A stretch of DNA of 64,000 nt, taken from positions 1 through 64,000 of the forward strand of contig NZ_SJPK01000003.1 in NCBI RefSeq assembly GCF_007859855.1. Direction: 5' to 3'. Shown here piece after piece: positions 32,339 to 48,261 of this stretch. The notes under the pieces were generated by a model. The model had not been told where the DNA came from. It was given only the letters and a program-made list of their open reading frames with translations, and did no database searches. Source of the stretch: Allorhodopirellula solitaria (lineage in GTDB: Bacteria; Planctomycetota; Planctomycetia; Pirellulales; Pirellulaceae). The translations under genes and the position numbers were made by a program. Position 1 is the first letter of the stretch. Every line of letters begins with the position of its first letter.

Positions 32339-33688
32339 ATGCTCAGCCGTCGTAGAATGCTGCAAGGGATCGCCGCCAGCACCGGTGCTGCCTTAGGTGC
32401 CTCGGTCGTTTCGGAACGCCTCCTAGCTGGACCCGCTGGCATCGGAACCTCCGCTGCGGGCACTTTTGGAAACGCGACTCCCAAGCGGATCGTTTTCTTC
32501 ATGCAGAATCAAGGGTTCGATCCCAAGACCTGCGTCCCGCGCGGCATGACGAGCAGCGGTTCGCTGGCCAAAGCGAAACTTCCCGAGCCCATCGCTGCGT
32601 TGGAACCTTACAAGGAACGACTGCACATTATCAACGGCTTGCATGGCCGCCACACCAGCCCTTCGCACAGTGCTTTCTTTGGCGCATTGGGAGGGTATCG
32701 CGGTAGTGACGGGGTACCGCCGAGTGCTCCGACTATCGATTACGAGCTGAGCAAGGCACTGCCAGAAACGCTACTGCCTCATCTGTGCATCGGCATGGAC
32801 TCGATTGAGAACATGAAGGCTAAGCCCACGATCGCGACGCTGTCGGCCAGCGGTGCTGGCCAGCCGATCTTCATGCATTCGAACCCCAATCATCTCTATC
32901 AAATGCTCTATGGTGGCATCTCGTCGGGCGACATACGCCGCCAGCACGAAGCGCGGTCGAGTGTGATGAGCCAGGTCGAGGTACTCGCGGCAATGAAAGG
33001 TCAATCGCTTCCCAATTCGGATCAACAGCGTTATGGCCAATTTGTGCAAGGCTTCCAGGACGTCAATGACCTCCGGGGCAGACTCGATACCGTTGCCGAT
33101 CACTTGCGGAATTTTGCCCCTACGGTGGATGAGCGATACACCGATCCTGAGTTCGAAACGGATTGGCACGATCGATTGCTGGACCTGGGGATCTCGGCAC
33201 TCACCTCAGGGATCACCAATACGCTGACGATCGGTTCCGGTCGCGGCGAAATCTTTGGTGCTTGGAAGGGACTCGGCGTGGAGAAACAGGGCCATAACCT
33301 GGGGCACATGGAACAGCCGGACAATCCGATCTGGATCAAGATCCGCCAATACAACAGCCGCATGCTCGCGCGGATCATGGAGTCGCTCGAGAGCGTTCCC
33401 GAAGGTAGCGGCACGATGATGGACAATACATTGATCGTCTACACGAGCAACAACGCGGACAAACAGCACACCAACGGTGCCAACTGGCCAGTCATGCTGC
33501 TGGGGAACCTCGATGGGGCGTTCAAATCCGGCTGTTTCACACAGCTCGATGGCAAGCGGCCGATCAACGCACTGTACACCTCGCTCCTGCGTGCAGCTGG
33601 CCAGAACCTCGATCGTTTCAACATGGACGACAAAATGGCCAAGAAGTTTGACGTTGCCAACGGTCCCCTCCGAGAAGTGTTGGCATGA
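32339..33688 (+). CDS. DUF1552 family secreted protein
   Basis: Encodes 449 residues. [31 protein letters not shown] resembles a twin-arginine type leader (SRRRMLQG, then a hydrophobic stretch). The body shows the DUF1552 pattern: [17 protein letters not shown] near the start, [36 protein letters not shown], and near the end [32 protein letters not shown]1552 proteins are abundant in planctomycetes and almost always paired with a DUF1592/DUF1588 cytochrome-like protein, as here. The function is unknown; some features recall the DUF1501/sulfatase-like alkaline-phosphatase fold. The stop TGA overlaps an ATG of the next gene (ATGA), so the pair is probably translated from one mRNA. Confidence 0.92.
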
Positions 33689-36267
33689 ATGGACGCACCG
33701 TAGTGGACGAGGCGACGAGTCCTCCCGCTCTGCATCTGCGTAAATCATTCGCGTTCAAGGACTCGTCGCCTCGTCCACTACAAACCGTGGCACTCCTCGC
33801 GACCGCATTCCTAACGCTCACGTTCGTAGGTCTGATCTCGCCTGTCAGTGCCCAGACCTACACACCCGGCGAAGCGATCGACGAAGACTTCGACCGCTTT
33901 GCGAAGCCGTTTCTCGAAACCCACTGCGTCGACTGCCACGGCGCGTCCTACCCCGAAGGCGAGCTGTCGCTGGAGGATCTCGGACCGGTCGACGAGATCA
34001 ATGCCAGCACCTGGAAAAGCGTGTGGGCACAGGTGTCTTTGCAAGAGATGCCGCCCGCGGACGCAGATCAGCCTAAGGTGATCGAGCGGCTGCGATTCTC
34101 CGACTGGATCGTCGGCGAACTGACGCGCGTGATGCGTGGCCGTGGCGGCTTCCAGGCTCACCTGGATCCCAACAAGGGTAATTTCGTCGATCACGAGTTG
34201 CTTTTCGGACCGCTTCCCGATGGCGTCCGACTCCAGCCCACCTCATCGGCCGCTCGCATTTGGCGCGTCACCCCCCAAGAACACATCACTCGTCTGAATG
34301 AATTGATCAACACCGAAGCTGAGTTCGACCCAGCCAAACCAGGGCTTCGCACCCATGGCGATGTTGTCCCCACCAATCACGGTGGTGAATTGAAACTCTA
34401 CTTCGGTACCGATCGCATTATTAAATGGCAGGGTGGAACGGTCGCCTATGCGACCTCGGTTAAAAGCGTACCGGCGGTGCTGTCGTCCGCACGCGATCAT
34501 GGCCTGGAGAACTACCCGATCTTCTCCACCGTCAACGGGGCCGAAGCGACGCAGATCATGGGGATTGCGGGCGACATCATCCGATACATGGCCGACGGCC
34601 CGCTGAGCATTGCCCGGCCCTATCAGATCACGGACGACCCGCAATCGATCGCGGACAAGATGAAAGGTGATCTTCGTGGGCTGCCCACCAGTCTGGTCTA
34701 TAGCACCGAGGTGGTTCGTCCGCTGACGCCAGTCAATGAATTCATGAACGACGACAGTGCGACTGACGATGGTTTGCGGGCTGCGGTGGACTATCTCTTC
34801 GAAGCGTTAACGTTCCGGCCGCCGAACCGGAGTGAGTCCGACGCTTACATGGCGATCGTCCGACACTCCATTGAAAAGATTGGTAAACAGGACGGCGCGG
34901 TCCTCGGCCTGACATCCATTTTTCTCGATCGAGATGCACTCTTCCGGCCGGAGTTAGCGGAGGACGGCAAGCCGGATGAGTTTGGCCGCGTCATGTTGCA
35001 GGACTGGGAACTCGGTCTCGCCGTCAACCATGCGCTGCGCTACCTCCGCCCCGATGAAAAGCTGCGTGACGCCATCACGGACGGGCGAATGCGGACCCGA
35101 GAGGATGTCAAACGGGAAGTCGAGCGGATGCTCGGTGACGACAGCATCCGCAAACCACGCATCCTGCGTTTCTTCCGTGAATACTTCGACTACGACCTCG
35201 GCGGCTACATTTGCAAAGACTCTCGAGCACTCGCTGACACCGGGGCGAGCAACCGAGGCCAGGCTCACTACCAATCCATGTTTGACGCCACCGCGAGTAC
35301 CGATCGACTGATCGAACTCATTCTGCGAGAAGACAAGGATGTGCTCAACGAGCTGTTGACAACCAACAAGGTCGTTGCGACGAAGGCAGACAACATTTAC
35401 TTCGGCACAGAACGCTCCCGCGAAGAAATCGCGGCATCCATCGCCGCTGTGAAAAAAGCGCAAGCGGAAGCAGCCCAGAAGAAGGCGGCGGAGCTTGCGG
35501 CCTGGAAGAAAGCGAATCCGGGAAAGGAACCGCCCAAACCCAAGGCGGGCAAGAAGCCAGCGAGCGTCAATCACCGGGTCACGGAAGCGGATCTATCAGG
35601 GCCGACGATCTTTGCACGCGTCAGTCGACGCAGTTTCGGTCGAGGATCGATGAAGCGGGAACGCATCCTCGCCGACGCCCCCAAAGGTGAACGAATGGGC
35701 ATCCTGACCCATCCAAGTTGGCTCGTTTCCCATTCGGATGCGATGGACAACCATGCGATTCGCCGAGGGCGATGGATTCAAGAAAGGTTGATCGGTGGCG
35801 GTGTTCCCGACGTCCCGATCACCGTCGACGCGATGCTTCCCGATGAGCCAAATCGCACGCTGCGCGACCGGATGCGGGTCACCCGCGAAGACTATTGCTG
35901 GACTTGCCATCAGAAGATGGATCCGCTCGGCCTGCCCTTTGAGATGTATAACCACGCGGGCCTCTACCGACGAACTGAACAGGACCAACCCATTGACACG
36001 TCCGGCGAGATCATCGATTCAGGCGACCCCGCCCTCGACGGCAAGGTGGCTGATGCGATCGAACTGATCGAGAGACTAGCTCAGAGCGAACGAGCCGAGC
36101 AGGTCTTCGTCCGTCACGCGTTCCGATTTTGGATGGGCCGCAATGAAACTCTCAACGACGGTCCCCTGCTCCAAGACGCGCACCGCGTCTATCAAGAGAG
36201 CGGTGGAAGCATGAACGCGCTGCTCGTATCCCTGCTCACCTCCGACGCATTCCTCTACCGCAAGTAG
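33685..36267 (+). CDS. DUF1592/DUF1588/DUF1585 cytochrome-c-like protein
   Basis: Encodes 860 residues from the ATG that overlaps the DUF1552 stop, or 826 from GTG 33787, where [23 protein letters not shown] gives a clean signal peptide. Between the two possible starts lies an 82-bp palindromic repeat that happens to stay open. A CxxCH haem motif is in [12 protein letters not shown]1592 follows the middle ([13 protein letters not shown]). DUF1588 has [14 protein letters not shown] and a second CxxCH in [14 protein letters not shown], and DUF1585 closes with [14 protein letters not shown]. An Ala/Lys-rich insert ([20 protein letters not shown]) lies at about 590-630. Exported, possibly haem-bearing electron-transfer partner of DUF1552. 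The stop codon TAG is the first three bases of the hairpin array. The GTG start seems more likely to me. Confidence 0.88.
33700..33781. repeat. GTAGTGGACGAGG palindrome inside the 5' end of a gene
   Basis: Perfect 24-bp inverted arms at 33700-33723 and 33758-33781 enclose 34 bases. The repeat lies 15 bases after the ATG that overlaps the DUF1552 stop and 5 bases before the alternative GTG start. Read through, it encodes VVDEATSPP ... KDSSPRPLQ. It is the only copy of this family in the window that falls within a possible coding frame. Confidence 0.85.
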
Positions 36268-37064
36268 GGCCGGTTCCCACCGGCCACACGCGTCGGTTAT
36301 CCGCACCTCCAGGGCCCGCATCGTATATGGCCGGTAGGAACCGGCCCTACGAACATTGCTCCCAAGTAGGGCCGGTTCCCACCGGCCGCACGCGTCGGTT
36401 GTCCCCACGTCCAGGGTCCGCATAGAATTTGGCCGGTAGGAACCGGCCCCACGAACGTTGCTACCAAGTAGGGCCGGTTCCCACCGGCCGCACGCGTCGG
36501 TTGTCCCCACGTCCAGGGTCCGCATAGAATATGGCCGGTAGGAACCGGCCCAACGGACGTTGCTCGCAAGTAGGGCCGGTTCCCACCGGCCTCACGCGTC
36601 GGTTATCCCCACGTCCAGGGTCCGCACAACACACGGCCGGTAGGAACCGGCCCTACGGACGTTGCTCACAAGTAGGGCCGGTTCCCACCGGCCGCACGCG
36701 TCGGTTATCCCCACATCCAGGGCCCGCACAGAATATGGCCGGTAGGAACCGGCCCTACGAACGTTGCTCACAAGTAGGGCCGGTTCCCACCGGCCACACG
36801 CGTCGGTTGCCCCCACGTCCAGGGTCCGCATAGAATATGGCCGGTAGGAACCGGCCCTACGGACGTTGTTCAAGAGTAGGGCCGGTTCCCACCGGCCGCA
36901 CGCGTCGGTTGTCCCCACGTCCAGGGTCCGCACAACACACGGCCGGTAGAAACCGGCCCCATGAACGTTGTTCACAAGTAGGGCCGGTTCCCACCGGCCG
37001 CACGCGTCGGTTATCCGCACGTCCAGGGTCCGCATAGAATATGGCCGGTAGGAACCGGCCCTAC
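36265..37064. repeat. array of eight hairpins, exact 102-bp period
   Basis: Units begin at 36265, 36367, 36469, 36571, 36673, 36775, 36877 and 36979, always 102 bp apart; the last is cut to 86 bp. Each unit starts TAGGGCCGGTTCCCACCGGC and ends with its imperfect inverse GGCCGGTAGGAACCGGCCCT AC. The ~42-base loop includes CGCGTCGGTT..CCAGG(G)TCCGCA and a ~16-base linker of GAACGTTGCTCACAAG type joins units. Arms are nearly invariant; loops and linkers vary at a few positions. Because 102 is a multiple of three, several frames stay open across it, but these have no coding character. The array separates two convergent genes and its first bases supply the stop codon of the DUF1592 gene. Confidence 0.95.
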
Positions 37065-37153
37065 GATGAATCTGTCTGCCGGGGCATTCGTCGGGACGGC
37101 CTCCGGCAGACACTACGTTCACTCGACTGACACTTTCGGTCAATCACTGACGA

Positions 37154-37891
37154 TTAGCTTCGCGACCGGCGGTCATCTTCGAGCTTCTTGGCCAGCTTCT
37201 TCGCTTCTTCGAGGTGTTTTTCAACCTTGTTGGCGGCCTCAGCAGCGACGGGCTGCAACTCCTCGGGGCCGCTGCTCTCGATGGCTCGAAGTTCAGCCAG
37301 CATCATGGTGTGGGCAACGCACTGTTGGCCGAGGAACGCCATGCTAAAGTCCTGCCCTTCGTAGTTGCCAAGCATCTCTTTGGTCATTTTCAACGCGTTG
37401 TCGCAGGCCTTCTCGCCAATCTCGCAGAGTTGCTTCGGCACAGTCGCCGTTTGACTAGCGGCGGCATTGCGTCGGTCACCTTGACGCTTCTCAGCGTGCT
37501 GTTGAAGCACCTGGTTGAACTGTTGATGATCTTTCACGATCGTCACAGCGAGTTGCTTCAGGTCCTCATTGTCCGACTTCTCGTGAGCGAGCTTCGCCAA
37601 TTCGATCTCGGCTTCGTTCGCCTTGATCAGCTTTTGCGTCAAGGCTTCTTTTACAGTTGGCCCTTGCTGTTGGACAGAGTTCTGTGCAGCCCGCCGAGCT
37701 TCGTAGCGACCGTCCTGTTCGGTTTGCGATCGGACTGGCCGGTCGGTTGGTTGCCCAGGGAGCGTCGCCGACTGGTCGCTTGGTACCTCTTGTGGGATCG
37801 GTTGGGGAAGTGTCGTTTGTGCGTTCACGGTCGAAAGACCCGCGATAGCGGCTGTGGAAAGCAAAGTTGTGGTGAATCGTAACTTCAACAT
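37154..37891 (-). CDS. secreted DUF4142 (ferritin-like fold) protein
   Basis: Encodes 245 residues with signal peptide MLKLRFTTTLLSTAAIAGLSTVNA. After a Pro/Gln-rich linker (to ~70) comes a four-helix domain: KLIKANEAEIELAKLAHEKS, LKQLAVTIVKDHQQFNQVLQQHAEKR, then an insert, then MAFLGQQCVAHTMMLAELRAIES and a long charged C-terminal helix. This is the DUF4142 pattern, a predicted ferritin-like helical bundle found in exported proteins of many bacteria; no metal-binding set is clear. It faces the DUF1592 gene across the hairpin array and stands alone. The biochemical role is unknown. Confidence 0.88.
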   Translation of the reverse strand: MLKLRFTTTLLSTAAIAGLSTVNAQTTLPQPIPQEVPSDQSATLPGQPTDRPVRSQTEQDGRYEARRAAQNSVQQQGPTVKEALTQKLIKANEAEIELAKLAHEKSDNEDLKQLAVTIVKDHQQFNQVLQQHAEKRQGDRRNAAASQTATVPKQLCEIGEKACDNALKMTKEMLGNYEGQDFSMAFLGQQCVAHTMMLAELRAIESSGPEELQPVAAEAANKVEKHLEEAKKLAKKLEDDRRSRS

Positions 37892-47874: not shown

Positions 47875-48261
47875 TTAGTTGCAGCAAGGATCGCAGTAGG
47901 AGCGAGCGGAACGACGTGCTTCGCACTTGGCACGCAAGCGTGCGAACAGGCCGCAGTGCTTACGAGGCTTGGCACATGGGTCGGGGCAGCACACTGGCTC
48001 AGGAGCTGGGCAGCAAACTGGTGCTGGTGCAGGCTCAGGGCAGCAAACTGGTGCTGGGGCGGGCTCGGGGCAGCAAACAGGAGCTGGCTCGGGGCAGCAC
48101 ACTGGCTCGGGAGTTGGGCAGCACTGAGGTGCTGGAGCAGGAGTGCAAACGGGTTGGCAGCAAGCCGAACGCTTTTTGTGAAAGAAGCCAGCTTCGGCTT
48201 GAGGTGCAACAACGCTGCCGGCAACGGCGAGCAGGGCAACTGCCAGGATCGTACGAATCAT
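47875..48261 (-). CDS. secreted Cys/Pro-repeat peptide
   Basis: Encodes 128 residues. MIRTILAVALLAVAGSVVAPQAEA is a signal peptide; GGTGAG stands about 11 bases before the ATG. The mature chain is a repeat of CCPEPAPAPV/CCPEPAPVCC units (residues ~46-94), framed by further Cys pairs (SACCQPVC, CDPCCN). Roughly 20 Cys in about 105 residues imply either heavy disulphide linking or metal binding. The repeats are near-identical in DNA, so the number of units may change by slippage. Planctomycetes are known for Cys-rich cell-surface proteins; a role in wall or stalk structure is inference. It has its own terminator. Confidence 0.82.
   Translation of the reverse strand: MIRTILAVALLAVAGSVVAPQAEAGFFHKKRSACCQPVCTPAPAPQCCPTPEPVCCPEPAPVCCPEPAPAPVCCPEPAPAPVCCPAPEPVCCPDPCAKPRKHCGLFARLRAKCEARRSARSYCDPCCN

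Follow-up and report, generated by a model that had tools for sequence, protein, structure and literature searches.

An array of eight head-to-tail REP doublets at a stop codon in Allorhodopirellula solitaria and the search for its transposase

Two convergent genes of Allorhodopirellula solitaria, a member of the Pirellulaceae, are separated by eight hairpin units that follow each other at a step of exactly 102 bp. We asked what kind of element this is, how it came to lie between these genes and what keeps its sequence intact. The window, i.e. the whole stretch of DNA analysed, comprises positions 1 to 64,000 of contig NZ_SJPK01000003.1; the genome is referred to as G000, its contigs are given C numbers and further genomes other G numbers. 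The array is very probably a tandemly amplified BIME or REPIN of a GTAG-type REP family of the Pirellulaceae, which would have been placed by a RAYT (REP-associated) transposase, then copied locally and would now be orphaned.

Structure of the array and its position between the flanking genes

TRF delimited a single array at 36261-37066 (period 102, 7.9 copies, 90% match, 0% indels). The array and its neighbours comprise the following features.

33685..36267, + strand: upstream gene, 860 aa, with PSCyt1, PSD4, PSCyt3 and PSD2 domains (ORF and domain matches)
36265..36267, + strand: TAG stop codon of the upstream gene, within the GTAG tag of the first REP (ORF and ortholog comparison)
36264..37064, no strand: tandem array of eight BIME units with a step of 102 bp (TRF and REP positions)
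36264..36285, + strand: REP of unit 1, GTAG tag plus 7-bp stem with TCCC loop; starts at 36264 + 102n, identical in 8/8 units
36329..36350, - strand: inverted REP of unit 1 with TCCT loop; copies at 36329 + 102n, 3/22 columns variable
37154..37891, - strand: downstream gene, 245 aa, DUF4142 (ORF and domain match)

Each unit starts with GTAGGGCCGGTTCCCACCGGCC, which is unchanged in all eight, and consists of an 87-bp doublet of REP and inverted REP followed by a 15-bp spacer that is absent after the last unit. The inverted partner closing the 87-bp core carries the loop TCCT (TTCT in unit 7), compared with TCCC in the first REP. Across all 16 REPs the gaps between neighbours alternate 65, 37, 65, 37 and so on, and the seven steps between units show no length change. 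This bears out the original prediction, made from the sequence of the window, of eight units at a fixed 102-bp step without a base gained or lost. From the base composition, 4e-8 exact matches to the 22-mer would be expected by chance in 64 kb.

The repeated element had been described as a 22-bp inverted arm. The arms do pair as inverted partners, but an arm is not merely half of a hairpin: each one forms a complete small hairpin by itself and is laid out like a REP, with a GTAG tag, a stem of 7 bp and a loop of 4 nt. REP and inverted REP can in addition form a longer hairpin, as in BIMEs and REPINs, and the doublets are arranged head to tail with flanking sequence included, as in tandem BIME arrays. 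Regular palindromic repeats are also found in CRISPR and integron attC arrays; either identity is practically excluded here, since the segments between the repeats are near-identical rather than unique and a unit step of 102 bp leaves no space for cassette genes. A coding repeat was considered, as 102 is a multiple of three, and rejected, as the periods of most other arrays in the genome are not. Reading frames are open through parts of the array because 102 is divisible by three. Rfam gave 24 matches, every one under its gathering score. A second tandem repeat in the window, at 48008-48087, consists of 2.7 copies of 30 bp.

Variation is distributed unevenly within the unit. Variable columns amounted to 0/22 in the first arm, 3/22 in the second arm, 13/43 in the loop (over eight units) and 7/15 in the spacer (over seven units). 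The arms are thus better kept than the remainder, as had been claimed (3/44 vs 20/58 variable columns; Fisher p=8e-4, which is nominal because columns are not independent). Pairwise identity among the units ranges from 84 to 98% over 87 nt, so the array has existed for some time. In a four-gamete test 16/36 informative column pairs failed, several of the nine columns belonging to one linked block; these failures point to exchange among units, the alternative being recurrent mutation.

Assembly can collapse or expand tandem repeats of such size, and a single genome of the species was examined. An assembly artefact or a wrong copy number is nevertheless very improbable, because all eight units differ in sequence and because clusters of the same REP type occur in assemblies from other genera as well.

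Folding of single units gave a strong predicted hairpin in each of the eight, as anticipated (-43.6 to -54.8 kcal/mol, z -4.1 to -7.2), and for every unit 0/200 shuffles were as good. With regard to the flanking genes, the expected arrangement was found: the TAG at 36265-36267 ends the 860-aa ORF on the + strand, in which PSD4, PSCyt3 and PSD2 correspond to DUF1592, DUF1588 and DUF1585, and the 245-aa ORF runs towards it on the - strand. The upstream gene ends here with CGC AAG TAG, within the REP tag, compared with CGC AAG TAA in its nearest ortholog (G006, 79%), which makes insertion of a REP at this stop codon likely. In RNA each unit would form a long hairpin, the first of which would enclose the stop codon. 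For this reason the most likely effect on the host would be that translation terminates more slowly or that the upstream mRNA is protected at its 3' end.

An alternative is that selection maintains the array, including its spacing, because it serves both convergent genes as an insulator or a 3'-end element. Its location exactly at a stop codon and between convergent genes, the strength of the hairpins and the better conservation of the arms, here and over 11 arrays of the genome (see below), would fit this explanation, as would 3 promoter-like matches on the + strand and 8 terminator-like matches, all on the - strand, within the array. For the whole scanned stretch, 4 promoter-like and 10 terminator-like matches were counted vs 0.2 and 0.9 in shuffles. 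However, a repeated unit multiplies any chance match of such a scan by its copy number, and the terminator-like matches are weak (rule of 5 T in 8), their tails containing scattered T with a longest run of two. The terminator scan had no matches on the + strand inside the array. Comparison with other loci and genomes, described in the following section, makes this alternative unlikely.

The REP family in the genome and in related genomes

The genome assembly is a draft of 6.80 Mb in 62 contigs, 99.92% complete by the tool's figure. A search of it for the REP core, allowing up to two mismatches, yielded 140 sites vs 3 for a reversed control. Exact cores had the TCCC loop in 75 cases and the TCCT loop in 49. 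As the pattern for these 124 exact cores did not contain the tag, they were used for counting tags: GTAG preceded 112/124 and GTGG 5/124, i.e. 117/124 had GT[AG]G. A looser REP census, which required the tag and is therefore biased for tags, was carried out on 26 regions plus the window, 27 stretches that cover all exact cores. It returned 134 REPs in 29 clusters from 26/27 stretches and may miss more diverged copies, the basis being at least 140 core sites. The remaining stretch (C11:170973-172321) holds a 405-bp tandem repeat with a diverged form of the arm and contributed zero REPs. At C9:87956-89105, two REPs of the same orientation, 1128 bp apart and with 36 bp of shared sequence, flank a 234-aa ORF.

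The clusters are extragenic: 0/29 lie wholly inside a called ORF of at least 90 aa, and 4/29 overlap an ORF end by 4-116 bp. By automatic ORF calls, with ORFs inside arrays excluded, 11 clusters are located between convergent genes, 15 between codirectional and 2 between divergent genes, while 1 was undetermined. This spread of contexts agrees with that of the REPs described in PMC3733652.

Clusters with at least three REPs make up 12/29 and contain 113/134 REPs. The TRF periods of these twelve arrays are 102, 140, 156, 101, 101, 179, 203, 104, 204, 140, 97 and 87. In 6/12 the step is strictly constant, in a seventh (C3:111k) it is constant except for the last REP, and the other five show length changes. 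The suggestion that the 102-bp spacing is itself under selection did not survive this comparison: the same REP builds arrays with periods of 87-204 bp, constant steps are common and the step value is particular to each locus.

A linker common to three arrays (C2:726k, C6:287k and C7:283k) shows 86-98% identity over 36-41 nt. The window linker, on the other hand, had no match among the other 11 units compared, and the full window unit aligned to other loci of the genome with 71-78% matches resting largely on the arms. The shared linker and the unmatched one support a scenario in which REP doublets were scattered in the genome and later amplified in place.

The arms are conserved beyond the window. 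Over 11 of the 12 arrays, 25/503 REP-type columns were variable vs 153/1014 other columns (nominal p=1.1e-9), a count based on a REP mask a few columns wider than 22 that leaves out gapped columns and the last unit in arrays of more than three. Here units were located via the REP, so that degraded first arms are under-counted in favour of conserved arms; this bias is absent in the window array, where all eight units stand at fixed positions. In single-array tests 6/11 reached p<0.05, and C6:287 showed no difference. A pooled exact-arm count (9/308 vs 168/814) was set aside because the last unit of C14:44 runs into flanking DNA.

In related genomes, the orthologs of the upstream gene in 11/11 congeners had zero REPs within a flank of about 1.5 kb; a twelfth congener, G011, gave only weak matches to the upstream gene and was left out of the count. 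The same-locus comparison proposed in the original prediction, carried out for the upstream gene, thus found the gene recognisable in these 11 and the REP lacking beside it throughout, and, together with the failures of the four-gamete test, it agrees with the predicted local expansion and homogenisation. The functional element considered above would be at odds with these REP-free orthologs and also with the different periods and gene contexts of the other arrays.

The proposed search for the arm itself showed that the 22-mer, with no more than one mismatch, is present in 19/149 genomes of the family. Sites numbered 758 in G039, which belongs to another genus, 130 in A. solitaria, 122 in G142, 34 in G122, 33 in G088, 20 in G006 and 14 in G116, and the remaining carriers have seven sites or fewer each.

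RAYT transposases and their association with this REP

Homologs of the canonical RAYT family (NF047646) were detected in 45/149 family genomes. The protein of G006 scores 177.9 bits against NF047646 (cutoff 80) and matches TnpA_REP of E. coli (4ER8) with E 1.1e-36. We inspected the neighbourhood of 30 RAYT loci, the best match from each of 30 of the 45 genomes. This REP flanks 4/30, namely the locus of the G006 query and its three nearest matches (G057 with 73%, G098 with 66% and G142 with 64%), and is absent at the 26 more distant loci (p=3.6e-5 if loci are independent); 6 of these 26 have another GTAG hairpin on both sides. The flanked genes are intact in G006 and G142, the two genomes in which an intact close RAYT was found, and broken in G057 and G098. 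A second RAYT homolog of G142 (C2, 47%) is not flanked by this REP. Among 42 Y1_Tnp-type loci, nearly all from REP-bearing relatives and a few of them duplicated, the REP accompanies 2, which are the G006 and G142 loci with intact RAYTs. The pairing of this REP with a RAYT, suggested as a check in the original prediction, is thus supported by neighbourhood.

These four RAYTs all lie in other genomes. In the 62-contig draft of A. solitaria, no match to NF047646 exceeded the cutoff (best 71.4 bits; 13 matches at E<=1e-5 lie below it) and none to the G006 RAYT reached E<=1e-8 (best 26% identity, E 2.1e-5). Because the genome is a draft, a REP-bounded RAYT could sit in an assembly gap. The REP-rich G039 likewise had no RAYT over the NF047646 cutoff, its best match of 78.0 bits being just under 80. 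Altogether 5/7 family genomes with at least 10 REP sites (G000, G039, G088, G116 and G122, all drafts) had no RAYT homolog with more than 48% to that of G006. At the aspS locus, where the RAYT of G006 resides, A. solitaria has no REP; as aspS alone aligns, this comparison is uninformative on RAYT loss. The lack of a RAYT in A. solitaria may be due to loss.

A RAYT-like Y1 gene of A. solitaria on contig C4, encoding 230 aa and scoring 54.6 bits against NF047646, has a REP on either side. At C4:119184-120348 it lies between near-identical direct repeats of at least about 210 bp, 1143 bp apart, each with one REP. Relatives occur in 94/149 family genomes at E<=1e-5, the nearest named ones in Neorhodopirellula pilleata (87%) and Rhodopirellula rubra (84%). 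Among 57 loci of this family sampled, 52 of which match the gene and some of which are duplicates, a REP within 400 bp was found at the C4 gene and at C1:489132 of A. solitaria, the latter with one REP about 330 bp downstream.

Both loci could be taken to mean that this generic 230-aa Y1 family (C4, C1, C5, C20 and others), rather than canonical RAYTs, mobilises the REPs. We regard this as quite improbable: the other sampled loci of so widespread a family have no REP within 400 bp, the REPs flanking the C4 gene belong to the long direct repeat, and canonical RAYTs accompany this REP in four genomes. The C4 gene was accordingly dropped as a likely partner because its relatives lack a REP nearby. 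As a caveat to the view that the REPs are orphaned, RAYT relatives below the cutoff exist in A. solitaria, and the C4 gene may act on the REP.

Known systems, origin and persistence of the array

The tandem BIMEs of E. coli are known as BIME-2. According to PMC3116915, PMC3686654 and PMC8266576, tandem BIMEs consist of doublets of REP and inverted REP reiterated head to tail with flanking sequence, as in the window, and Pseudomonas fluorescens SBW25 has REPINs in tandem clusters of this doublet-plus-flank layout. The eight doublets described here compare with four REPINs in the largest ordered cluster of SBW25, other SBW25 arrays having 12 REPs, and with a tandem cluster of six REPINs in E. 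coli, as far as these sources and PMC8049555 describe them. The window array differs from the E. coli and SBW25 arrays in its REP sequence, its phylum and the cognate RAYT not found in the draft genome.

GTAG REPs, including families of R. baltica, have been described by Di Nocera et al. 2013 (PMC3733652). They have, as here, a GTAG tag, a stem of mostly 6-9 bp and a short loop, and form dimers with GTAG outside (HH) and clusters in which dimers are reiterated with flanking DNA. The likeness of the window REP to these R. baltica families is one of layout. For REP- or RAYT-type elements in planctomycetes, PMC3733652 and PMC6006769 were the only reports among the matches listed, in a search that covered few subscription journals. 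Since tandem BIMEs, REPIN clusters and planctomycete GTAG REPs are already in print, the family in the window adds to a known kind.

For the origin of the array we propose three steps. In the first, a REP doublet would have been inserted beside or within the stop codon that ends the upstream gene, by a RAYT (TnpA_REP) that works on single-stranded DNA. The 102-bp segment, i.e. the doublet plus 15 bp of flank, would then have been copied in place, possibly by slippage or unequal recombination, to eight units that exchanged sequence; this second step is supported by the REP-free orthologs and the variation among units. In the third step, which is supported though not proven, the cognate RAYT would be missing by now and the orphan REPs maintained through local copying.

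The REPs of A. solitaria look orphaned and yet their arms are conserved. In the model of Nunvar et al. 2013 (PMC3686654), REPs decay after loss of the RAYT, and for E. coli PMC8049555 reports fewer REPINs in RAYT-less genomes. Without a RAYT, the conservation of the arms would have to come from gene conversion, from selection acting on the hairpin or from a very recent RAYT loss. Tentatively, the family may persist after RAYT loss by local tandem amplification, with its arms preserved either through gene conversion among arrays or through selection on the hairpin, an explanation we consider possible rather than probable. If true, this would amount to transposase-free persistence of REPs, contrary to the model of simple orphan decay. 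With 130 sites in A. solitaria and 758 in G039, and no RAYT over the NF047646 cutoff in either, such persistence would be testable across the family.
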